Below the pieces are notes generated by a model. The model made no database searches. It had not been told where the DNA came from and saw nothing but the letters and a program-made list of their open reading frames with translations. Made by a program: the position numbers and the translations under genes. A stretch of DNA of 30,046 nucleotides from a virus. Of the stretch, positions 1 through 27,312 are shown in pieces (positions within the stretch are counted from its first letter, which is position 1; each line of letters opens with the position of its first letter). The stretch is taken from the IMG/VR virus record IMGVR_UViG_3300030329_006293, positions 6,725-36,770 of that record. One strand, written 5' to 3'.

Positions 1-2
1 AT

Positions 3-392
3 GAAGGAGGCAACCAATCATTCTTCGATATGGTGGATTTGCACGCGCATCATGCAACAGTGTATGCGTATCCTCCAAAGAAAGTTGCGATGCATTTTCC
101 AATGGCAAAGATACAGCCGCGTGATAGCCCACTCAAACAGCACGATGCTATCGTAGATGCGTGTGATATTTTGATTGTTGCTACTGATAGGCCATGGGCA
201 GAGTATCAACAAGATTTGTGTTGGAGAGCAGCACGTCGAGCTGAGCGCCAAGGAAAGCAAGTGATTTGTGTTTATCCACAAGGAGTTATTGGTCCAGAAC
301 CATGGAACTTTGAAGTTCCAGAGCAACAAGCACCAGACCCGAAAATGCTTGCTAAGGCGATAAAAATTGCAAAGGGAGATGAAGAAGAATGA
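3..392 (+). CDS. SLOG-like Rossmann-fold protein, 5' end outside window
   Basis: The reading frame is open to the left edge, so the N-terminus is missing; the internal ATG at 30 is probably not the true start. The visible part begins with a Gly-Gly stretch followed by FFDMVDLHAH, then a strand ending in AYPPKK, then RDSPLKQHDAIVDACDILIV and a helix before GKQVICVYPQG. This order (GG loop, PP turn, RD..IVDACD, final Rossmann strand) resembles SLOG-superfamily proteins, which bind or cleave nucleotides or nucleotide-derived ligands. The usual Gly-Thr loop after the LI strand is not obvious; WAEYQQDLCWRAA stands there instead. Its stop overlaps the DNA polymerase start as ATGA, so the two are co-translated. 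A role in nucleotide metabolism is inference from fold and neighbours. Confidence 0.6.
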   Translation, partial: EGGNQSFFDMVDLHAHHATVYAYPPKKVAMHFPMAKIQPRDSPLKQHDAIVDACDILIVATDRPWAEYQQDLCWRAARRAERQGKQVICVYPQGVIGPEPWNFEVPEQQAPDPKMLAKAIKIAKGDEEE

Positions 393-2845
393 AGTACACT
401 CATCTCTGTGTTAGGTACGCTGATAAAAAGCGTTCGTTTCCTGAAATATGGTTGCAGCATAGAGATGAAGATGGCAATTTGCATTTATCGAAACAGGCCG
501 AATCTCCACCTCACGTACTTTACGTTAGTGAAGATGCTCCTTTGAAAAAGGATGATGTTCGCGTGAAAAATGTGACTGAAGGATTTATTGGTTATCGTGG
601 AGAAAAATTGAAGCGAATCGAATTAAATTGGCCGCTCACTAGGAAAGAAATACGCGAGTATGTACAGTCATTTGAACGTACATGGGAAGCCGACTACGAA
701 TATCTTATTCGCTTTATGGTGGAGCATGAAATTGAAATGACCGATAATAGACGTGTGTGTAATATCGATATTGAGACTTACATGTGTCTTGATTCAGAAA
801 AATCGCCTCAGCCGGTTTTAACAATGACCGTACACGACAGCTTTACAGATAAAATGTGGGTATTTGGTTGGTCTGAAAACTTTACTATTCCGTTAGAATC
901 TAAGAAAAGTCCGCAAGGACGTGATGTCGACATTTTAATTAGAGGCACTGAAGTTGAAATGTGGCAAGATTTCATATTGTGGTGGGATGAATATCGTCCA
1001 GATATTGTGACTGGATGGAATGTGGAATACTTCGATATGGCATACATTATCAACAGACTTCAAAGACTTGAAGGGAATGGTATGCAACCACTTTCAAACG
1101 CTTTAAGTCCTTATGACGATAGACCTTGGGCCGCGCGTAAACGCGGAAAGGCATATGTTCAGCCATCTATTCATGGTCTCGATATACTTGACCTAAAACG
1201 CGCTTATGAACGCTTAGTTGGAGGTCGTAGAAGTATGACTGAAAAAGGCATTAGAGCACTCACTTCTTACAGTCTTCAGAATGTTGCAGTTCATGAATTA
1301 GGATGGGGGAAATTACCTCCCGCGAAAAGAATTGATGAAGCGTGGGATTCTGAGGACATCGCAGATTTGTGGCAACTTATCGACTATAACATTACTGACG
1401 TAGAAGCTTGTGTTGAAATTGATTTAAAGGCTGGGTTGACCGAGTATTATGTTGCACAACAGTGCAAGTTCCCGTACCCATTCAATGCATGGGACCAGAA
1501 CTCACGTATTATTGATGCGCAATTACTCAGAACATTTCATGGAGAAGTCGTATTGCCTTCTAAGCCTCCATATCGTAAGCAGACATTTGAAGCAGCAAAA
1601 GTTTTCTATCCACCTGCTGGAGTATTCAAAAATGTTGGATGTCTTGACATTGCTGCGATGTATATCAACGTTATTCTGTCATGCAACATCTCGCCTGATA
1701 CTATAGTGGGGCCAGATTTTGATGGTCCAAAATGTTGTGTAAATGATGTATTCTTTAGACTCGATAAGAAAGGAATTATTCCTACTGCTGTTGAGAATGT
1801 TCTAGCACAACGAAAGAGAGCAAGAAAGGCAGCTGTTGAAGCATTGAATCGTGGAGACAAGGAATTGCACAAGGCGTTGTGGGTAGAGCAGGGAGCATGG
1901 AAGACGTTGCAATTATCATTTTATGGTGTCACAAGTTTGCCGAGCTTCAGACTAAATGACCCTCGTGTAGCGCGTGGTATCACATGGACTGGCGAGTTTT
2001 TGATTAAGTACACTTGGTGGTTGGTAGAGCAAGATGAGTTTGCAATGCCGTTATATGGTGATACAGATTCGGTCTACATAAAGCTTCCCGATGAGTGGGA
2101 CAGAGAGCGGTGCTTCATGTATATGAATGCTCTACAGGATGACATCAATGATGCATACAACAAGTTTATGCTTGAACCTCATGATTTCTCATTCACACCA
2201 TGGACAGAAGAAGAGGAAATCACTTTTGATTTCACGATTGGTGTTAAAGACCACAGTATGGAATTGAAATTCGAGAAGTGGTACACTGCAATGCTTGTTG
2301 AAGGTGTTAAGAAACGATATGCAGGAAATAAAGTGTGGGAAGAAGGAGCAGAGAAGAATAATGTTATTGATGTCACTGGCTATGAAGCCGTTAAGAAAGA
2401 TACTCATGAAGTGTTTCGACACGCTCAAGCGGAAATGTTCCGCCTTCTTCTTGATGGTGCGACCCAAGAAGAAGTACAGAACTGGGTAGATGAAAAGCGC
2501 GACATGGTTTTCAGTTTGCCTCCAGAAGAACTCGCGTTTTCAAAACAGCTTACCAAGCCACTTGAGAAATACAAGGTACGCGCACAACATGTGAAAGCAG
2601 TGGAGTATGGAATACGGGCCTTCCAGAGGGAGTTTTCCGTGGGAGAAGATATTACCATGCTCAAAGTAAAAGGCACCCCTGAGGGCTATCCTGAGCATGA
2701 AGGAATTATTCCTTTTGACCCAGATAGGGGTCTTCATGAAGATTGGATTCCGTTCGTAGATAGAGAAGCCATTTGGAAAGATGGTGTTGGAAAGAAAATC
2801 CAAACGACTCTTACGCGTATAGGAATGAACGAGGTGAAGATATAA
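389..2845 (+). CDS. polB: Family B DNA polymerase with 3'-5' exonuclease
   Basis: Replicative DNA polymerase of 818 residues. Exonuclease motifs are present: Exo I NIDIET (Asp127, Glu129), Exo II around TGWNVEYFD (Asn211, Asp216) and Exo III YNITD (Tyr333, Asp337). Polymerase motif A is DIAAMY (Asp420) followed by the archaeal-looking NISPDTI. Motif B is KTLQLSFYG (Lys505-Gly513), where Leu509 replaces the usual Asn of KxxxNSxYG. Motif C is YGDTDS (556-561). A thumb motif KKRYAG follows. Length and spacing fit a complete archaeal-type PolB; no protein-priming insertion is evident. The ATG at 389 overlaps the previous stop and has GGAGAT about nine bases upstream. The stop overlaps the next start as TAATG. 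Confidence 0.95.
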   Translation: MKYTHLCVRYADKKRSFPEIWLQHRDEDGNLHLSKQAESPPHVLYVSEDAPLKKDDVRVKNVTEGFIGYRGEKLKRIELNWPLTRKEIREYVQSFERTWEADYEYLIRFMVEHEIEMTDNRRVCNIDIETYMCLDSEKSPQPVLTMTVHDSFTDKMWVFGWSENFTIPLESKKSPQGRDVDILIRGTEVEMWQDFILWWDEYRPDIVTGWNVEYFDMAYIINRLQRLEGNGMQPLSNALSPYDDRPWAARKRGKAYVQPSIHGLDILDLKRAYERLVGGRRSMTEKGIRALTSYSLQNVAVHELGWGKLPPAKRIDEAWDSEDIADLWQLIDYNITDVEACVEIDLKAGLTEYYVAQQCKFPYPFNAWDQNSRIIDAQLLRTFHGEVVLPSKPPYRKQTFEAAKVFYPPAGVFKNVGCLDIAAMYINVILSCNISPDTIVGPDFDGPKCCVNDVFFRLDKKGIIPTAVENVLAQRKRARKAAVEALNRGDKELHKALWVEQGAWKTLQLSFYGVTSLPSFRLNDPRVARGITWTGEFLIKYTWWLVEQDEFAMPLYGDTDSVYIKLPDEWDRERCFMYMNALQDDINDAYNKFMLEPHDFSFTPWTEEEEITFDFTIGVKDHSMELKFEKWYTAMLVEGVKKRYAGNKVWEEGAEKNNVIDVTGYEAVKKDTHEVFRHAQAEMFRLLLDGATQEEVQNWVDEKRDMVFSLPPEELAFSKQLTKPLEKYKVRAQHVKAVEYGIRAFQREFSVGEDITMLKVKGTPEGYPEHEGIIPFDPDRGLHEDWIPFVDREAIWKDGVGKKIQTTLTRIGMNEVKI

Positions 2846-3903
2846 TGCCAGACCCAACAGGAAAAAGGAGAACAAATAAGGTCCTAGCACCTAAGAATTC
2901 GATAGCAAATGACGTTGATACGTTAACTGAAATGGCATATCTAGACCTTGTAGAATCAGGCACTTCAAACAATCGTTTAGTTGGAGAATGGGCTATGCAA
3001 CCTGAAGGAGAACAAGATATGTTGGAACTTCACAATTATACGATGGTTTTGAGAAATCCATGGAATTGTGTTGGACGCCATTTTGGAGCTAAACATGTCG
3101 GAATAATCATTGAGTTTTTCGATGTTATTAGAGGCGATAATCCTGGATTCATTCATAGAGAATGGAAGTTTTACGAAAAATGGATGACGCTGAACAATAC
3201 TCCTTTTGGAACGAAACACTATCCGTACACGTATGGAATAATCATTAACGGAGCATCTAGACAGTGGAAAGAATGTGTGCGCAAATTGAAGGAGAATATG
3301 AACACTCGACATGCAGGAATTGTGTGTTGGAATACTGATGGATGGTGCCCTGACGCAGATGGCGTGCATCATCGTGATTTTGTACCTTGCACATATCAGT
3401 TCCACTTTCAAGTCATTGATGGCAAACTGTGCATGACAACTATGATGCGGTCGCAGGACGCATTGAAGGGGTGGTGGTTAGATTGCTTCCTCTATAGTAA
3501 TTTAGCGATGATGATGGCTGATGAGTTAGATATTCCTGTAGGACACTACACAGTATTTCAAAACAATTTCCACGTCTATCCATCTGACCGCGCAGCGCTC
3601 GATACGTTCCTAAGTGAATTTCGTTTATATCCGGGACCGACTGAAGGTTCCCTCGCACCTAAGCTGTCCTCGGCAGATAGTTTGGAAATTCATACGGCGT
3701 TACTACACCTTTACTCTGCTGTTGAAAAGGAGGAACCTTTATATACAGTTGAGCACATCGAGCGTATAAGAGAACCGTACTGGCGTTCACTACTCGCGAT
3801 AGTATTCACAAAATATGACCCAAAAAATAAGGAACTGGAAAAATACATGGTTTCGACATCACACTCCAACTGGAGACAAAACATCATAAATGAGGTGAAC
3901 TAA
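2845..3903 (+). CDS. Thymidylate synthase-family enzyme, probable dCMP hydroxymethylase
   Basis: 352 residues from the ATG that shares a base with the polB stop; GAGGTGA lies eight bases upstream, favouring it over an in-frame ATG at 2773 inside polB. Family hallmarks: YTYGIIINGASRQW (129-141), the phosphate-binding region NMNTRHAGIVCWN (161-172), the nucleophile in PCTYQFHFQV (Cys182), RSQD (Arg202, Ser203, Asp205) and HVY (His243, Tyr245). Without any gap from RSQD to the following Tyr, Asp213 falls where thymidylate synthases carry the Asn that recognises dUMP. Known dCMP-specific relatives, such as T4 dCMP hydroxymethylase, carry Asp there. It probably uses methylenetetrahydrofolate to modify C5 of dCMP. 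The family is firm; substrate and product (hydroxymethyl or methyl) are inference. No modified-dCMP kinase or glucosyltransferase is visible. Confidence 0.8.
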   Translation: MPDPTGKRRTNKVLAPKNSIANDVDTLTEMAYLDLVESGTSNNRLVGEWAMQPEGEQDMLELHNYTMVLRNPWNCVGRHFGAKHVGIIIEFFDVIRGDNPGFIHREWKFYEKWMTLNNTPFGTKHYPYTYGIIINGASRQWKECVRKLKENMNTRHAGIVCWNTDGWCPDADGVHHRDFVPCTYQFHFQVIDGKLCMTTMMRSQDALKGWWLDCFLYSNLAMMMADELDIPVGHYTVFQNNFHVYPSDRAALDTFLSEFRLYPGPTEGSLAPKLSSADSLEIHTALLHLYSAVEKEEPLYTVEHIERIREPYWRSLLAIVFTKYDPKNKELEKYMVSTSHSNWRQNIINEVN

Positions 3904-7800: not shown

Positions 7801-8434
7801 ACCTACCCAGTCCACCAACACCTCTTAGTACAAATCCAGATGGTTCTGGAGCAGTATACACTAACTGTCCTCTATGCATCCACAGATTGTCGAATTCATT
7901 TTGCAGGTGTTTACCATAACATTGTCGTGTTTCAGCTACAATTGGCGCATATACTGTGGTATCGGTTGGCAACTCTGTATACGAATTGTCAACTCCAACT
8001 ATAGCTGTTGCACCTATGTGCTTATTGAGAGAAAATTCGACATTTGAATTGAACTTCTGATAGAGTACAGTATTCATGAAAACGTTCTCACCATAAGTTG
8101 TTGTGTCAATTGCATTTATCTGTACTAAATGGGTATTTCCTTCAAATTCGAGGGATTGTATTAGACCATAAAATAGACAGTTTTCAACACCAGACGAATT
8201 CAGCATTACAAGTTTCAAAGTGTCTCCAACTGTCAATTGGTCAATAAATCTTACGCCTCCTTCTGTTGGAGTGTTGTCTAACATTGCTTCAACTATTGTT
8301 GATTTGTTAGAATCGAATCGAATTTTGAACTCTCCTTTTGGGTCATACTCAGCAGCACCATCAGGAAACGTCCCACTCTTCTTCTTAATTCTCATGAACG
8401 GTCTTCGTTCATGAGGAAGAAAGGGCAGGCCCAT
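4883..8434 (-). CDS. Large tail hub/baseplate-like protein
   Basis: 1183 residues from the ATG that shares one base with the previous stop (TAATG), with GGAGG eight bases upstream; an in-frame GTG at 8449 is less likely. The N-terminal part (about 1-170) has a beta-rich pattern with LFYGLIQSLEFEGNTHLVQI, as in tail-hub proteins where a strand pair surrounds an FxGxI motif. The C-terminal third (about 740-1110) contains VRDVFHSLCSRV, VWKSIVKLAQQYDAKVWI, FELAKKAAEALKTIY and FRVTGIEYESREHKTSLQL, a pattern typical of phage gp27/gpD-like hub domains. Between them lies a large Gly/Asn/Pro-rich stretch (about 180-730) of unknown fold, possibly a receptor-binding or carbohydrate-binding insertion. 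Last gene of the tail operon, after the fibre gene. Hub assignment is moderately sure; the insertion is unexplained. Confidence 0.6.
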   Translation of the reverse strand: MGLPFLPHERRPFMRIKKKSGTFPDGAAEYDPKGEFKIRFDSNKSTIVEAMLDNTPTEGGVRFIDQLTVGDTLKLVMLNSSGVENCLFYGLIQSLEFEGNTHLVQINAIDTTTYGENVFMNTVLYQKFNSNVEFSLNKHIGATAIVGVDNSYTELPTDTTVYAPIVAETRQCYGKHLQNEFDNLWMHRGQLVYTAPEPSGFVLRGVGGLGRLSTGDGSEDDPWVDFPEDVNPLSTVERPVLGSGNYYSADEFYFSNGAKKVVAQTFEATRDDQITNIFFPIAKCIRRYPSQITASRGKDEHGNNIASGTNVIADDGWDQTSALSPGNYGWHEIVGCPQETRLHDTARGQPYNTFGPGLDLKVTLVKCTQSESAQSGSTVSSGGATTKYDTHVNKKEMVPSAVSLGQLGGTPEAGIDWTNLDDLSYAAVEVMKDSDGNPIQITIEPENPVPSPHYPAGETIATNYMLMNHNTNYPDNKRGHGHEVFMHDENYADAYTLFGWNLESTPVNIERGETYALVFEMLGNPNHPQETDGTDIGGTPNPGYLSPAIAWAVGIAIANDALINHISGVTNTAWTIYDEGAHLKSALNENTNSDGTGNMVGHHGRVTYSSQIRSLPGYDITYGQGSPPTWQHTPSSRAGPYISGAEFGFWEYEDWLSTQAARDLNYNVMVSDKGGSAAGSVEMPTMFPVCGFRGKGSHISSYFSVVSGAWKVAGENLYWKWDAQRRLVLWGAGSADYQPVTDIGNIKMSRISYYSNPSTGGLLRASNKSTVRDVFHSLCSRVSEWGTVVCDYTLDGADDVYGTGYNDSSTFELSYFSSTNETVWKSIVKLAQQYDAKVWIHTDLSGNNTLVFEKMTTITDFAYNNPGIHQYSFSNRTEDPDILKYMTYTKISQDIENMYTRFRIIGASPDEASGTYTIPGLPTANTSSPPISWILDVPQMQTLTGYRKEFEFKSEKNITSFELAKKAAEALKTIYAQDQYSGTLTLSGCHPLYENASLGLMFDRNAVVRIMDKYAVTGDSPTGTTNVFRVTGIEYESREHKTSLQLTTIIENTDYVEAQRTINQLKKNEQKEQDIGNRYTEKCDAPSPLALSTTMMMYVRDSTGRIIAGEDKSPTVVDGDGEWFLVGSFLAGYGTIANDAQPIIQVESEEITTPATSYISALENSIYKWEKDSLTVIQRFVKP
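8391..8415. repeat. Perfect 10-bp inverted repeat at the start of the hub gene
   Basis: CTCATGAACG (8391-8400) and CGTTCATGAG (8406-8415) are exact reverse complements with a five-base spacer. They lie in codons about 7-15 of the hub gene, roughly 20 bases after its ATG. In the mRNA this would form a stable hairpin close to the start, and could tune hub translation relative to the upstream fibre gene. Confidence 0.7.
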
Positions 8435-11400
8435 TAATCTTCCCTCCACTCTTCAATCTCGATTACAAACTGTGCAGCACTGATTTGCGGGTTGAGAATA
8501 CGTTGGTTGAATTGTGTAATTTTTCCACGATATGTGTAGCAATATGGAGAGATAAATTCGATAAGAGTTCTATCCATCCATAGTTTCTCCATCATTCCCA
8601 TGATGTACGCATCATTAACACAGACGCACGTCACGGTGCTGAGCCGACTTTCAAATCCATTATCAGTCATTCTGTCGAAGTTTAATCCTACAATTCTGTG
8701 TCTTTGAACATCGATATCTTTATCTGTTTGCATTCTAATTACCGAGGTATTGTGCGATGCGTCGTCAAGTAAGAGTGTTTCGTATGGAGCATTACCGATA
8801 GGTCTTACACTATAATTTAATCCTGATAGTAAACATCCTTCAATCTTAAGTGGAGGCTCATTTTCATAGCTAATTCCTTCCGTTCGTATTCTCCATTTGG
8901 TATCGTTCTTTCCAGATATGTTGCACCCAGTTAGCCAAAGCTTTCCATTTCCTGATAGTGTGATGTCCTGGTCAACTTCCAATGTCACGCCTATCAATTG
9001 AACGAAAGATTCAATATCTTCATCCATCCGAGTATCTGCCCATGTCACGTCTTCTATCACAGGATTCCAATCTCCATTATTGATGTTGGAAAATACTGCT
9101 GAAAGATTCGAGTTCACCGTGAGGTGCCGCAAATCTACATACTCTGTCGACGCACCAAGCACGTATCCTGAAGAGGGCATAAATGTTAGCGCTGTATTTC
9201 GATAGATTAGAGTGTTTGTTGTGCTTCCCTCTCTTACCCACACCCTATCGAATTGTGTAGAGGTACTGTTATTTCCATATCCAGACAATCCATAATAACC
9301 ATTCGTAAATGTGGAATCAGTAGCAGTCAATGTTCCACTATCATCAAAATATCCTTTTACTTGGCCTGTGTGTATATCGTAGCTTGCTTCCATATATGTG
9401 ACGGAAGCTGCAAAATTAGGAACAAATGTTGTTGGGCCTGTCAATACAGTCTCCACGCCATTCTGAATCTTTATGATTTGATGCGACCAATTTCCAACAG
9501 AATAACTGACGACATATTCGTATCGATTATCTTCGTCTTGTGCACACAGCGCCATTCTGTATGTTGCTGCACTTCCTGGTGTTGTGCCACGAGATGGTAT
9601 CAATTCGCCTGTGACCATTTGTTTCTGTGGGTCATTATATTGATGACTTTGTGTTGCTCTATTAGATGCGGAGTTAGTGCTTGCAATTCCGAAATAATCT
9701 GTTCCAGGACCAGTTTCATTTTGTTGGATAGAATCCATTTGTGTTATGAACTTCAATGGTTGCGAATCAGAGAATAATGTAAGCCCACTAACAGTTTCAA
9801 CCAATTTCATATTTGCAAATCCTGCTTCCTCATTTCCAAATGATACTACCACTTGAACACTACAACAACCACTGAGGTCTACATTTTCTCCATTAGTAAC
9901 GCCACCACTAGTAGAGCCAGAAGAATTATGTTTTACTACTACAACTGTTATCGGATTTGCTTCGTCCCATTCATCCCATGTGAACTTTACGCTACTACTA
10001 CCAGCAGGCAGATGAATACTAGTTATTTGTGTGTCAGCGCCTTTTCCTTTCCGATATGATTTATCTCCGCTTTGTACAGTAATTGCTGGAGATGCTCCAG
10101 TTGATGTTTTCCAAAGTGGAGGATGGAATGCTACAGTGGTTCTATGACAATCTAAAGTTCCAGATAGTAGAGTTTGCGAAAGATTTGTCATATTTGTCCA
10201 TTCTGATATCGCTACTCCAGAGCCACCTCGCACTGAAAATCCGAATCTCGTATTTGATAGTGGTAAAGACCATCCACATATGTGCATATCATTTGAGGAT
10301 GTTGAGGTTGTTATAGGTGTCACTACACTAGGTACCGCGATAAAGTTTCTAGTAGTATCTGTGAAGGTAGTGACTGGCATTAGCACTCCAATTCCTGCCG
10401 TCATATTATTTCCAACGAAGGCATTATGTCTTAAATATGAAGGATATCCAGGTGGCCAAAGTATTGAACTTCCAAACAAAATATGCGCAGTTTCGCCCGT
10501 GACTTCAATTCTGTTTTCATGTATTGTAGATGTTAATGATGGAAGTCCACCAAGTACTATCGTACCGGTTACGGCGGATGGGAAGTTTCCAACTACTTCG
10601 TTATTTTCTATGTTATGCTCGAAATAGGTACACATTGCAAAGTGTAGGAATCCACATCCTCCGTCATTTATAGTTCCAACGTGGCAATTTCGGAGTTCAA
10701 CAGTACTATTTGTTGCTCCAGTTTTTGTAGTTCCATTATAGTTCGATATGCGAAACATGTGGACGGTATCGACACCTAAACTAGAATACATATTGCAATT
10801 TTTAATTGTCGTCGTGTTTGCTGCCTTCGCATTGTCTTTTCCTAAGTACACTCCACGACCATTCAGATACATCCATGTAGTCGTCACATCTGTAGAAGTG
10901 TCTCCAAGTACAAAGTTTGAAGTTCCATAAATAGCTGCAGCTCCAACAGCATCTCCTCCACCTTCCCCACTAGGTGAACCTAGTACGAGGATGGATTGAG
11001 TTCCGTAGCGACCATTGTTGGATGGCCAATAGAAATTAGAATCATAGCAGTGCAAACTTGGATTTGTCCATGATTCGCTATATCCGATACCTGCATCTTT
11101 ATTATCTGTTGCACCAGTTCCAAATACATCTGCACAGCTGCGACCTTTCAGATATAGGTGGGTGTTGGCATTTGACCCAGATGTTGTAAATGTTGCTCCA
11201 TTATTTAGATACAGTAGGTCTGCAATTATTCCTTGATTTGCGTTTTGAACTGAATGTGTAAGAGTATGTGGTCCATCTACTACAATAAGTCCAAGAGTTG
11301 GCGTTCCATAAACAGGTCCTACCATACCACTCTCAGGATTCACAGCTTGGTCATTCCAATCGATAATGTCACCACTTCCAGACCATATCCAATATGAGTG

Positions 11401-14400
11401 TCCTGCCTCAAATGATACTATGCTATCGTTTCCGAGTGTTAGATTTTGAACTGAGAATGCAGTTCCATTTCTCGCTCCAAGCATTCCAGTATCCTGAAGT
11501 CGTATGTTGGAATTTGTTGAGCCATCTCTCCCAACATAAATGTTTGTGTATTCAGCCGTTCCATTTACCCATATCAGATATGTTGTGGATTTTCCTTTGC
11601 CAAGCATATACATCGAAGTTCCACTTAATGCTCCATTAAGTGTGTTGGTGAATATGTTGTATGCGTCTGTATTAACATGGTCGAATCTTACTGTGTCGGC
11701 ATTAACAGCTCCACCAGTATCAATTGTTAGGCCAGCTTCTTTCACATCCAAATCGATAGAGCTTAAAATATGCCCAGTTCGTTTTACTTCTAGAATGTCA
11801 TCTTCATTGACTCCATCAACTGTTAATTTAGCAGAACTCGCTCCACTAGCCAATCCAATTGTTGCACCTTTCAATACTCCATGTGCGGCGTCCCCATAGT
11901 CAACAACAAAGTTTCCATTGATTGTTGTGTTTGTATCTTCAATTACATACGCAGCACTCGTAGACCATGTGCCTGCACTTTGTAGACCAATTTCAACATT
12001 ACAGGTGAGTGTTGTTGGAAGCTCACATGCATTTGAATATGTTCCTGGGTCTAAATCAGGTGTGAATCTGAGAGTTGTAGAATATACAGGCTCTAAGAAA
12101 TGTCCATTTGCCATTGTCAAATTATTATGCCACGGATTTGTGTTATCGTGACGTGTGACTTCAAATATCAAATTCCCAATTGGAGGAGAACCAGTGTTAT
12201 TCCAATCGTAAGTACCACTACCAGTCACGTATCCTGCTCCAGTAGTCGCAATACCTTGGCGTGCAGTGCACCCTGCTGCAATGTTTAAGTGAGATGGATA
12301 CGAGCGCGCCGGTGCGGCAACGACATTCGACCAACTATAATCTGCTACTGTTGTATTGTAAGTTCCATCGCCAATTTGTACAGCAGTGTAGACTGGTGCG
12401 CTACCAATTATTTGCCAGTTTGAAGTCACGGTAATGTTCAAATTTGTTGGACTGCCACTTTTTGCTCCGAGCAAATATAGAGTTGGGTCTCCATCTGCTT
12501 CAACTGTTCCAGTACCAGCATAAGTAATGTCGCCATTCACAACTTTCAAATCCATTCCCTGAACGAATGTTTGTGTCGCTGTCCAGTTCGCTCCTGTTTC
12601 AATTCCCCAACCTACTGCATCGTCTACCACTGTATATGTGGTGTCCTGCGCTGTGCTGTGCGCTAAAGTTCCAGTTCCTCCGCCTCCAACAATCATGTGT
12701 ATTGTGTGTGGATGACAATCTGCGATGTCTGTAGTTCCAATATATGCTCCATCATTCAATACCTTTGAAGTTAATCGTGGCGCAACAGATGATGCTCCAA
12801 TTGTTCCACGAACATTATACAATTCATATGTTCCTCCACCTGGACCAGTATGTTGTAGATTTCCATTGAATGTGGTTTCAGTTGCAGAGTGGAGGAATCG
12901 CCCAAACAATTCATGTCCAGTTCCTTCCAATACAAGCTTCCCTGTTCCGCCTTTCATTCCAAGTCCTGTGTATCCGTCTCCACCTGTCATTGCTTGCTTA
13001 ACAGCGTTGTATTGTGCTGCATCAGTACTTTTGAAATCAAAATAAGCGCTAACTGACCTTCCGCTTGGCCACGAGCTAGGTGGATTTGTCATTGTTGCAC
13101 CATCAATCCACACGACATAATCAGCCTGTACTAGTGGGTTTGCATGGTCGCCGTATATTTCTATGGCTGTTTCAACGTGAGCACCAGGTCCTCCATATTG
13201 CCAATTAATGGTTCCAGCAAGCATTTCAAATCGTAAACACTTGATTGATGCTGCTGCCATTGTGACTGAGTTGTCAAACATTATTTCTCCAGTGTTTAAT
13301 GATAAGTTTGTGTAGGCAGTGTCGCCACTATTTCGACATTCTAATGTTCCACCTACGAAATTGAATGTATCGATTCCACCATTTGTTGCAAAGTCTATTG
13401 CTTGAAGACACTTTAGATTTCCTGTAAACTTGTGTTGAATTGTACTATCCTGACCATGGTCTACACGTAGTGGTTGTGTGATTACAGTGTTGTCTCCTAA
13501 ATGTTCGACAATAAATCCTCCGAGGCTACCTTGAGCTACATCGAATACTTCAATAGTACTCAGCTTCATATTCTCTACTTGAAGAACACTCCAATTTGCG
13601 TCTTTAAATGCAGCTCTCAATACACCATGTGGGTCAGTACTAAGTGAAGCAACTTTACATGTGTCTGCGTTTCCAAGATTTCTCATGTCTACTTCAATTT
13701 GAACGGCATTTAGTGTTGTGCCAGCATTAGAAATAAATGTCGTAGTACCATTAGTTGGATTCAATCTTAGTGGTTGCGCTGGAACAATAGTTGAAGTTCC
13801 AGCTAATGAGAATGATTTGAATCTTCCAGAAGTATAATTGACAGTTGCAGTACCATCTGCATATCCGATATTAACGTAATTTGCAGTCGCTGATGAAGTT
13901 TCTAATGGGTTATCTGGTGCGACAAAGGTATGTGTTCCTCCAGTCATAAATTGTAGATGTGGAATGTTTGTCCATCCATTAACATCGCCTAGAATCTGGA
14001 ATGTTGTTGTTCCTTCCATGTAGAGTTTAGCGCAATTTGACCAATCTATCGAACCAGTATTTGCACTCATTCCTGATGGCACTGTTAGTGTGTCTGTGAT
14101 TTTGACTTCACCTAACGAGTGATTAAACGTTAAGCTAGTATTTCCTCCTCCAAAGGTCAATTTCTTAATCACCATATTGGGACTTAAACCAGCAGTATTT
14201 TCCATGAGGAATGAGTTGGGTGTTGCTGTCCCAGACCCAACGAGAATGTATTCTCCGGTTGTGCCTGTGGCAGTTCCCCCTTGACCATGATATCCAATAA
14301 ATGCAGTTTGTCCTCCAACTGCTGGAGCAACTTTAATTGCCATTGCACTCCAATCACCCATACTGTTAATTGCACCTGGTGCGACTGAAGTTGTTCCACG

Positions 14401-15750
14401 AACTGTGATATCGAATCCTCCGCTATTTGTGACGGTTGCTCCATTTTGAATGTGTATTGTACTCAATACATCTGTCGTTCCAATGAAATCGACAAGTCCT
14501 CCTAGGCTCAAATTATTTGGACCAACCTGAGTAGTTGATGATACACCACCAATGTTGATTGGTGTTCCCCATCCTCCGCTTCCAAGTGTCTGATTTATTT
14601 CTACACTCGTAGCTGTGAATGAACTAGTAGCATCATCACAAGTGTAAAGGCATGTTCGATAAGGACCACCATTTTCTTGCAGTGTAGCGCCCAATAAAAT
14701 TAATGTTAGTGTAGTATCTAGAACTGCTCCGCCAGTTTGCCATGGAATCTCTGCTCCAACTAACCAACTACCGTTTCCAGTTCGTAATTGCCCCCATCCA
14801 GTCACTCCGTCCAATGGATTGATTATGGCTGCATCGAGTTTATTTTCTCCTGATAGATTTGGTGTCGCATTTTCAGTAGCGTGGAGAAAAATGTTTGCCC
14901 AAGTTCCAGTCAATAAAAATCTCCATTCTTGTGTTGGATTATTGACAGAAGTTGGTAATAGCGAACTGTATCCTCCATCGATAGCTCCGAAGAACATATC
15001 AGTGTATGTACCAGGAGTACCATTCCAACTAAGATTTACTGGGTCTGCTGTGGATTGGAAATCTACAACCTTTGGGTAAAAGGATTGGAAATTGGTAGTT
15101 CTCGAACCAAGGTATGGTGCGCTAGTTAGGTCCAATTGAAGTGTGCAAGTACCTCCAGTTGAATTATTCATTGCGAATTTTCCACAAGCAAGATTATCTT
15201 TCGTAATCCATAATTTTGAAGTCATAGTCGACGCTGGTGAGTAATAAAACTCTGCTGTCGTTAAAATAGGGTCAATTCCAGTTGCCCCATCTCCAAGCCA
15301 TAAACTTGTAGAATAATGAAAGAGAGATGTCCAAGTTCCTCCGTTTATCCACATTGTATCGGCCATTATCATTTGTGGTACACCATTACTAACTAGACCT
15401 GGGTCGGCAAATCCAGTACCTTCATTCTGAAGTGTGGTACCTTCAGTTCCACATCCAACAGAAAATACCCCTGAACATTGGATAGTCATGATATCGATTA
15501 ATGTAGGAGTTTGAACTCCAGGATTTGGAACACCTGGTGGCATAAAATATGATGCGCTATCTCCGAAAATGTACATGTTTTCAACAGCTAATGTCGTACC
15601 AATTAGATGTGGATTTATCGAATCTCCAATGTAAACGGTATCACTTACACCTGGCATAAGAGGTGGTGGAAGCTGGGTTGCCTGGTCGGTCCAATTATCT
15701 GGGTTTGTGATGTCTGAACTGACTAGTCCATTCCAAATGAGTATTGCCAT
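8434..15750 (-). CDS. Giant beta-rich tail fibre/adhesin
   Basis: 2438 residues, the largest gene in the window, starting at an ATG with a strong AGGAGG site. The N-terminus has a WNG...NPDNW...DTVYIG motif, a common entry to beta-solenoid surface proteins. Most of residues 50-1850 are short Thr/Gly/Asn/Val-rich strands consistent with a parallel beta-helix; near 1650-1760 are turn ladders of the NosD type such as LRNCHVGTINDGGCGFLHF and IENNEVVGNF. Around 2000-2170 is a concanavalin-like (LamG-type) domain with RYEYVVSYSVGNW, QVKGYFDDSG and FDRVWVREG. The C-terminal 100 residues (SRLSTVTCVCVNDAYIM, YCYTYRGKITQFNQ) look like a compact baseplate-attachment domain. Lying between tape measure and hub genes, it probably forms the receptor-binding tail tip. 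No catalytic motif was identified. Confidence 0.75.
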   Translation of the reverse strand: MAILIWNGLVSSDITNPDNWTDQATQLPPPLMPGVSDTVYIGDSINPHLIGTTLAVENMYIFGDSASYFMPPGVPNPGVQTPTLIDIMTIQCSGVFSVGCGTEGTTLQNEGTGFADPGLVSNGVPQMIMADTMWINGGTWTSLFHYSTSLWLGDGATGIDPILTTAEFYYSPASTMTSKLWITKDNLACGKFAMNNSTGGTCTLQLDLTSAPYLGSRTTNFQSFYPKVVDFQSTADPVNLSWNGTPGTYTDMFFGAIDGGYSSLLPTSVNNPTQEWRFLLTGTWANIFLHATENATPNLSGENKLDAAIINPLDGVTGWGQLRTGNGSWLVGAEIPWQTGGAVLDTTLTLILLGATLQENGGPYRTCLYTCDDATSSFTATSVEINQTLGSGGWGTPINIGGVSSTTQVGPNNLSLGGLVDFIGTTDVLSTIHIQNGATVTNSGGFDITVRGTTSVAPGAINSMGDWSAMAIKVAPAVGGQTAFIGYHGQGGTATGTTGEYILVGSGTATPNSFLMENTAGLSPNMVIKKLTFGGGNTSLTFNHSLGEVKITDTLTVPSGMSANTGSIDWSNCAKLYMEGTTTFQILGDVNGWTNIPHLQFMTGGTHTFVAPDNPLETSSATANYVNIGYADGTATVNYTSGRFKSFSLAGTSTIVPAQPLRLNPTNGTTTFISNAGTTLNAVQIEVDMRNLGNADTCKVASLSTDPHGVLRAAFKDANWSVLQVENMKLSTIEVFDVAQGSLGGFIVEHLGDNTVITQPLRVDHGQDSTIQHKFTGNLKCLQAIDFATNGGIDTFNFVGGTLECRNSGDTAYTNLSLNTGEIMFDNSVTMAAASIKCLRFEMLAGTINWQYGGPGAHVETAIEIYGDHANPLVQADYVVWIDGATMTNPPSSWPSGRSVSAYFDFKSTDAAQYNAVKQAMTGGDGYTGLGMKGGTGKLVLEGTGHELFGRFLHSATETTFNGNLQHTGPGGGTYELYNVRGTIGASSVAPRLTSKVLNDGAYIGTTDIADCHPHTIHMIVGGGGTGTLAHSTAQDTTYTVVDDAVGWGIETGANWTATQTFVQGMDLKVVNGDITYAGTGTVEADGDPTLYLLGAKSGSPTNLNITVTSNWQIIGSAPVYTAVQIGDGTYNTTVADYSWSNVVAAPARSYPSHLNIAAGCTARQGIATTGAGYVTGSGTYDWNNTGSPPIGNLIFEVTRHDNTNPWHNNLTMANGHFLEPVYSTTLRFTPDLDPGTYSNACELPTTLTCNVEIGLQSAGTWSTSAAYVIEDTNTTINGNFVVDYGDAAHGVLKGATIGLASGASSAKLTVDGVNEDDILEVKRTGHILSSIDLDVKEAGLTIDTGGAVNADTVRFDHVNTDAYNIFTNTLNGALSGTSMYMLGKGKSTTYLIWVNGTAEYTNIYVGRDGSTNSNIRLQDTGMLGARNGTAFSVQNLTLGNDSIVSFEAGHSYWIWSGSGDIIDWNDQAVNPESGMVGPVYGTPTLGLIVVDGPHTLTHSVQNANQGIIADLLYLNNGATFTTSGSNANTHLYLKGRSCADVFGTGATDNKDAGIGYSESWTNPSLHCYDSNFYWPSNNGRYGTQSILVLGSPSGEGGGDAVGAAAIYGTSNFVLGDTSTDVTTTWMYLNGRGVYLGKDNAKAANTTTIKNCNMYSSLGVDTVHMFRISNYNGTTKTGATNSTVELRNCHVGTINDGGCGFLHFAMCTYFEHNIENNEVVGNFPSAVTGTIVLGGLPSLTSTIHENRIEVTGETAHILFGSSILWPPGYPSYLRHNAFVGNNMTAGIGVLMPVTTFTDTTRNFIAVPSVVTPITTSTSSNDMHICGWSLPLSNTRFGFSVRGGSGVAISEWTNMTNLSQTLLSGTLDCHRTTVAFHPPLWKTSTGASPAITVQSGDKSYRKGKGADTQITSIHLPAGSSSVKFTWDEWDEANPITVVVVKHNSSGSTSGGVTNGENVDLSGCCSVQVVVSFGNEEAGFANMKLVETVSGLTLFSDSQPLKFITQMDSIQQNETGPGTDYFGIASTNSASNRATQSHQYNDPQKQMVTGELIPSRGTTPGSAATYRMALCAQDEDNRYEYVVSYSVGNWSHQIIKIQNGVETVLTGPTTFVPNFAASVTYMEASYDIHTGQVKGYFDDSGTLTATDSTFTNGYYGLSGYGNNSTSTQFDRVWVREGSTTNTLIYRNTALTFMPSSGYVLGASTEYVDLRHLTVNSNLSAVFSNINNGDWNPVIEDVTWADTRMDEDIESFVQLIGVTLEVDQDITLSGNGKLWLTGCNISGKNDTKWRIRTEGISYENEPPLKIEGCLLSGLNYSVRPIGNAPYETLLLDDASHNTSVIRMQTDKDIDVQRHRIVGLNFDRMTDNGFESRLSTVTCVCVNDAYIMGMMEKLWMDRTLIEFISPYCYTYRGKITQFNQRILNPQISAAQFVIEIEEWRED

Positions 15751-27285: not shown

Positions 27286-27312
27286 TTGGCTCAAACTTTG
27301 AAAGTGACTTAG

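Follow-up and report, generated by a model that had tools for sequence, protein, structure and literature searches.

A thymidylate synthase-like enzyme predicted to act on dCMP and a candidate pathway for sugar-decorated cytosine in a tailed virus with a likely archaeal host

The locus described here raises the question of whether a small tailed virus encodes its own enzyme for altering cytosine nucleotides and, if so, what becomes of the product. The window analysed is a stretch of 30,046 nucleotides, bases 6725-36770 of the 36,770-base linear virus record IMGVR_UViG_3300030329_006293; positions are those of the window, and coordinates labelled L002 are those of the full record. It includes, next to the gene for a family B DNA polymerase (PolB), a gene for a 352-residue thymidylate synthase (TS)-like protein in which a first-pass annotation had read the Asn-to-Asp switch of deoxycytidylate (dCMP) hydroxymethylases. 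The reading that we favour, and regard as reasonably likely, is that this enzyme modifies C5 of dCMP, most likely as a dCMP 5-hydroxymethylase, and starts a virus-encoded pathway leading to sugar-decorated cytosine.

The 352-residue product belongs to the TS superfamily. It matches Pfam PF00303 (E 2e-15; 57 bits, cut-off 24.3) and four PHROG TS families (E down to 2e-22). When it is aligned jointly with E. coli ThyA, T4 gp42, phage G gp319 and further proteins, the superfamily features are present: Cys182 aligns with the nucleophile (Cys146 in ThyA, Cys148 in T4 gp42), Glu90 with Glu58/Glu60, Tyr130 with Tyr94/Tyr96, Arg202-Ser203 with ThyA Arg166-Ser167 and His243-Val-Tyr245 with H-L-Y (His207/Tyr209). 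The position of ThyA Asn177, which selects deoxyuridylate (dUMP), is occupied without a gap by Asp213, equivalent to Asp179 of T4 gp42 and to Asp186 of MilA, the cytidylate (CMP) 5-hydroxymethylase of mildiomycin biosynthesis (PDB 5jnh, 5b6d). An independent, gap-free HMMER alignment to MilA (..MRANDAFRGAVSDVF..) gives the identical register. The two alignments therefore agree with the earlier reading, in which Asp replaces the dUMP-selecting Asn while the nucleophile, Arg-Ser and HxY are retained. One close relative of the virus was found (IMGVR_UViG_3300037808_001156, 31.9 kb; L003 below). Its enzyme is 54% identical and keeps Asp213 and the residues around it unchanged. Among 42 further viral loci from a search with four aligned sequences, 40 carry an Asp of this type at position 177 (ThyA numbering); with the enzyme pair from the two viruses as sole query, no further relatives were found in viral contigs and none in cellular genomes.

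With Asp at position 177, dCMP is favoured by T4 gp42, by engineered TS and by the enzymes of environmental phages whose cytosine is modified (PMC5175136, PMC6400193, PMC8670742). In the MetaGPA study, positions 177 and 147 were those that best separated TS-like proteins of modified from those of unmodified environmental phage DNA (PMC8670742). They are Asp and Thr in both the 352-residue enzyme and T4 gp42, and Asn and His in ThyA. According to the MilA study, dCMP is favoured over CMP when Arg and Ser take the places of Lys133 and Ala176 (PMC5175136); the enzyme has this dCMP type of pair, Arg155 and Ser203, on which ground a CMP hydroxymethylase of the MilA/BcmA type was set aside. The Asn-to-Asp switch, the Thr (Thr183) at the place of ThyA His147 and the fact that the closest solved homologues are cytosine-nucleotide enzymes all support the preference for dCMP over dUMP first proposed, and the enzyme very probably acts on dCMP. 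That it is instead an ordinary TS making thymidylate (dTMP) with drifted residues, the sugar genes that lie upstream serving virion or surface glycans, is very unlikely. A kinase-deaminase fusion encoded upstream could provide dUMP for such an enzyme and the record holds no other TS gene, but the defining Asn177 is replaced by Asp and His147 by Thr, the NCBIfam TS models score far below their cut-offs, and the C-terminal tail that closes the TS active site finds no match in the 352-residue enzyme, which has a helical extension there instead.

The fold points in the same direction. An AlphaFold2 model built with 34 relatives (predicted local distance difference test, pLDDT, 77.6; predicted template modelling score, pTM, 0.77; residues 100-127 unreliable) was used for the comparison; a model made from two sequences only was of low quality (pLDDT 45) and was left unused. 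Foldseek ranked the MilA entries first, and with VIA-align MilA stood at the top of the 50 matches listed (Z 28.9 over 298 residues), followed among them by the HY126 dCMP hydroxylase (Z 21.3 over 223 residues) and by TS proper (about 20). The absence of T4 gp42 from the 50 listed matches is uninformative; when a profile of the relatives is used, it scores near MilA. MilA is also the closest solved structure by sequence, and as the match extends to the C-terminus, the helical extension is common to both.

What the virus might do with a modified dCMP is suggested by the genes upstream, which the first-pass annotation, limited to the window, had overlooked together with a shifted catalytic Asp discussed below. 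The first 6.7 kb of the record lie outside the window and all their genes are on the strand of the enzyme. The order is primase-like, helicase-like, dehydrogenase, epimerase, a 452-residue protein, a kinase-deaminase fusion, a gene without family match, PolB and the enzyme (Table 1), whose start codon shares the final base of the PolB gene. The rest of the genome had been named as the place to look for a modified-dCMP kinase, a dCTPase or a glycosyltransferase: a deoxynucleoside monophosphate (dNMP) kinase, fused to a deaminase, and a glycosyltransferase-like protein are indeed found there, and a dCTPase is not, in a record that may be a fragment. L003 has a similar overlap and the identical order except for the gene without family match, with identities of 54% for the enzyme, 54% for the 452-residue protein, 50% for the fusion, 63% for PolB, 45% for the dehydrogenase and 55% for the epimerase. 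The whole modification set is thus held together at about 50% identity between the two viruses.

The 452-residue protein is the candidate glycosyltransferase. Five family members share invariant DSN, WRQ, NR, TNP and E-x-x-GGC-x-x-RE motifs, the last of which (Glu-x-x-Gly-Gly-Cys-x-x-Arg-Glu) recalls the nucleotide-sugar binding of GT-B enzymes. From its gene company, the protein would act on DNA. The nearest solved structures are, for the dehydrogenase, archaeal UDP-N-acetylmannosamine (UDP-ManNAc)-type and UDP-glucose dehydrogenases and, for the epimerase, GalE-like enzymes, GDP-mannose epimerase and UDP-glucuronate decarboxylase. Both fall between several described activities, and the donated sugar could be either a uronic acid or a pentose derived from it.

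Three large viral contigs carry related gene sets. The search with the enzyme had yielded L057 (250 kb), which holds a relative of the 452-residue protein (28.6% over 448 residues, E 4e-38); L060 (178 kb) and L061 (152 kb) were found through the glycosyltransferase-like family alone. Each has a dehydrogenase, an epimerase, a kinase, a deaminase and a TS-like enzyme within about 10 kb, and these TS-like enzymes combine Asp177 with the complete hydroxymethylase signature. The large viruses encode kinase and deaminase separately, the two small ones as one fused protein. The full set therefore occurs in all five carriers found of the glycosyltransferase-like gene, each with an Asp177-type enzyme, a further argument against an ordinary TS. 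That viruses whose dCMP enzymes are apparently of different lineages have the sugar and glycosyltransferase-like genes in common indicates functional coupling. The suggestion of the first-pass annotation that the genome may contain hypermodified cytosine is strongly supported by this cassette and by its conservation in the four other viral contigs, and we think it rather probable that the virus DNA carries glycosylated cytosine. The cassettes of the large viruses also include a gene of the uracil-DNA glycosylase (UDG) superfamily (L057 7301-7897, L060 8263-8826, L061 11146-11739; assigned by Pfam in L057 and by eye in the other two), and that of L060 alone a gene that appears methyltransferase-like by eye (L060 8816-9493).

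Several observations weigh against a hydroxymethylase that feeds a sugar pathway. The first concerns the Asp three residues before the nucleophile, Asp145, which is essential in T4 gp42 and whose replacement (D145N) leaves no product (PMC6400193). In both the 352-residue enzyme and its L003 counterpart the residue at -3 is Phe179 and the Asp (Asp178) is at -4, the loops being HRDFVPC and ERDFVPC respectively; Asp is at -3 in all 40 Asp177-type viral relatives, in T4 gp42 and in MilA, and Glu in RB69. Moreover, the Ser two residues before the active-site Tyr (T4 Ser94) corresponds to Tyr128, with Thr129 at -1. Ser or Thr at that place is not universal among Asp177-type relatives, the phage G group having Gly. 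The enzyme pair also forms a long branch in the tree, without firm neighbour and weakly near the RB69 dCMP hydroxylase, while the L057 and L061 enzymes group with T4 gp42. In addition, neither dCTPase, MazG nor a second TS was found in the records of the two small viruses, which may both be fragments (for the same reason the lack there of UDG, dUTPase_2-type and MazG genes is uninformative). Finally, the 452-residue protein has no match in Pfam, NCBIfam, PHROG, PDB or a phage collection, so that its activity rests on gene company and the GT-B-like motif.

The shifted Asp speaks for a dCMP methylase, an enzyme completing the reaction by hydride transfer to 5-methyl-dCMP, as in phage Xp12 and the engineered N229D TS; the DNA would then contain 5-methylcytosine, with the sugar genes serving, say, virion or surface glycans. 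In the 352-residue enzyme the water-activating Asp is displaced and the -3 residue is hydrophobic, like Leu143 of ThyA. We nevertheless consider this rather unlikely, since the TS-like tail that shuts the site for hydride transfer is missing, the closest structure in a comparison set that left out dCMP methylases (Xp12) is that of a hydroxymethylase, MilA, and relatives of the glycosyltransferase-like gene accompany hydroxymethylases with the full signature. The loop of the L061 and L054 enzymes reads KDFVC, and a single proline insertion would convert it to the form seen here. We take the difference to be such a one-residue insertion, which would retain the Asp; a bulge of this kind could still position it. 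Because the water-activating Asp is displaced by one residue, the term hydroxymethylase is less certain than the action on dCMP; hydroxymethylation is what we infer, and a hydroxymethyl product is likely.

The weak grouping with RB69 bears on another possibility, which we judge unlikely: a flavin-dependent dCMP 5-hydroxylase like that of RB69/HY126 (AfhB), with the sugar joined directly to 5-hydroxycytosine. The structures 9iqc and 9iqu follow MilA in the fold comparison (Z 21) and match in sequence too. The RB69 enzyme, whose sequence matches PDB 9iqu over the aligned stretch, is of the dCMP 5-hydroxylase type, and RB69-type DNA bears arabinose on 5-hydroxycytosine (PMC13390438). The tree join, however, is one of long branches, and RB69 lacks the equivalents of Asp169 and Gly173 (MRSQNCAVVM), whereas the 352-residue enzyme retains the folate-site Asp205 and Gly209.

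With a dCMP 5-hydroxymethylase as the preferred reading, the pathway could run as follows. Cys182 would attack C6 of dCMP, with Asp213 gripping the cytosine through N3 and N4; methylene-tetrahydrofolate would donate the C5 methylene, and addition of water would give 5-hydroxymethyl-dCMP. The kinase domain of the fusion and then a host kinase would raise this to the triphosphate, the deaminase domain diverting dCMP to dUMP, and the viral PolB would incorporate the modified nucleotide into DNA. The viral nucleoside diphosphate (NDP)-sugar dehydrogenase and epimerase-family enzyme would meanwhile make an activated uronic acid or a derived sugar, which the glycosyltransferase-like protein would place on the hydroxymethyl groups in DNA, giving protection from host nucleases. 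What the data show directly is the family, the residue switch and the conserved gene set; the chemical steps, the nature of the sugar and the advantage to the virus are proposals. The virus thus probably decorates its own cytosines with sugar to hide from its host. The most specific version of this proposal, in which an archaeal tailed virus substitutes for cytosine a hydroxymethylcytosine bearing a uronic acid or a sugar derived from one, with a donor made by its own dehydrogenase and epimerase, a still unnamed DNA glycosyltransferase family common to large phage-like viruses and a dCMP enzyme with a rearranged water-activating loop, is tentative, and we would put it somewhat short of even.

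The first-pass annotation had also spoken of archaeal promoters. A TATA-like sequence, CTTWAWWWAGG, occurs four times (in three places) against 0.24 expected, among others some 25-30 bases before the start codon of the gene at 27294. PolB is nearest to the haloarchaeal Halorubrum tailed viruses 27 and 25 (26%), and the best counterpart of the capsid protein comes from a Methanobacteriales virus (26.9% over 96%). The portal protein, by contrast, is nearest to those of bacterial phages, and a search for tRNA genes, which might have pointed to a host, found none. An archaeal host is likely, and the earlier wording stands in this weaker form.

Table 1. Positions of the enzyme, its key codons and the neighbouring genes (L002, full record; L003, related virus)
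Feature	Position in window	Position in full record	Strand	Basis or remarks
NDP-sugar dehydrogenase		L002 1966-3186	enzyme strand	Cys-x-x-Lys-Asp motif intact
Epimerase-family enzyme		L002 3183-4154	enzyme strand	Tyr-x3-Lys pair intact
452-residue glycosyltransferase-like protein		L002 4142-5500	enzyme strand	no family match
dNMP kinase-dCMP deaminase fusion		L002 5615-6550 (L003 6490-7503)	enzyme strand	50% identity to L003
3' part of a 193-codon gene between the fusion and PolB	1..392	L002 6535-7116 (whole gene)	+	no family match
Family B DNA polymerase, 818 residues	389..2845		+	PF00136 4e-28, phrog_262 2e-101; 63% identity to L003
TS-superfamily enzyme, predicted to act on dCMP, 352 residues	2845..3903		+	PF00303, MilA homology, AlphaFold2 model
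Asp178 and Phe179 codons (four and three residues before the nucleophile)	3376..3381		+	alignment; signature from PMC6400193
Cys182 and Thr183 codons (nucleophile, and the place of ThyA His147, which is Thr in T4 gp42 too)	3388..3393		+	alignment
Codon of Asp213 (position of ThyA Asn177, T4 gp42 Asp179, MilA Asp186)	3481..3483		+	alignments
Small protein directly downstream of the enzyme, kept in L003	3906..4265		+	weak AbrB/MazE-type DNA-binding match, PF04014 below cut-off

Among the neighbouring genes, the 193-codon gene starts outside the window, is interrupted by a run of 10 N just before it and is the one missing in L003; by eye we take it to recall the Rossmann-like SLOG proteins. The labels primase-like and helicase-like are also readings by eye (for the primase, from a motif) without family support, and the primase-like protein has no PDB match. 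In the region of the tail genes, a protein of 2438 residues (8434-15750) with no Pfam match and a shorter counterpart in L003 is probably a large host-contact protein. A collagen-like protein of Gly-x-y repeats lies at the terminus of a relative's contig (L007 3-2195).

This compact set of sugar-donor and glycosyltransferase-like genes allows a direct test of whether archaeal viruses modify cytosine with sugar and offers new enzymes to label or protect hydroxymethylcytosine, and the displaced catalytic Asp probes how strict the published hydroxymethylase signature is. Compared with known systems, MilA resembles the enzyme over nearly the full length in sequence and fold, C-terminal helices included, and shares the Asp at the cytosine-reading position and Cys-Thr at the nucleophile. 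It differs in its low identity (17-18%), in Lys133/Ala176, which favour CMP, and in having Asp at -3 from the Cys, in place of Phe with Asp at -4. The RB69/HY126 hydroxylase has in common Asp at 177, the MRSQ and LD motifs and a role in viral DNA modification, but RB69 is without the folate-site Asp and Gly. The L057, L060 and L061 cassettes cluster the same kinds of genes, among them a member of this glycosyltransferase-like family and an enzyme of the dCMP-hydroxymethylase type; they belong to far larger genomes, their dCMP enzymes have no MilA-like C-terminus, they include the extra UDG-like gene, and their kinase and deaminase are separate. The Maribacter phages Molly and Colly likewise have contiguous dehydrogenase, epimerase, glycosyltransferase and TS-like genes (L014 7969-12728, Molly_1; L015, Colly_1). 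Their TS-like enzyme, however, has Asn at 177, which makes a uracil nucleotide probable, and profile comparison revealed no kinship between the Molly glycosyltransferase and the 452-residue protein. Their genes likely form a parallel pathway for modified uracil or thymine, which is absent from the discussion in the main text of the paper describing these phages.

T4 offers an analogy in kind: its gp42 matches the enzyme at Asp179, Thr149, Met167, Cys148, Glu60, Tyr96 and the Arg/Ser set, and a kinase, a deaminase and a DNA glycosyltransferase are likewise encoded alongside it. The 352-residue enzyme differs in lacking Asp145 and Ser94 at their exact places and in about 100 extra C-terminal residues. 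T4 depends on host UDP-glucose and is not known to have dehydrogenase and epimerase genes of the present kind. Bacterial phages are known to carry cytosine modified with sugar. In a non-exhaustive search of open papers, methylated cytosine and adenine were the only modified bases seen to be reported for archaeal viruses (PMC4284463). The system described here is probably a variant of the T-even strategy in an archaeal virus.

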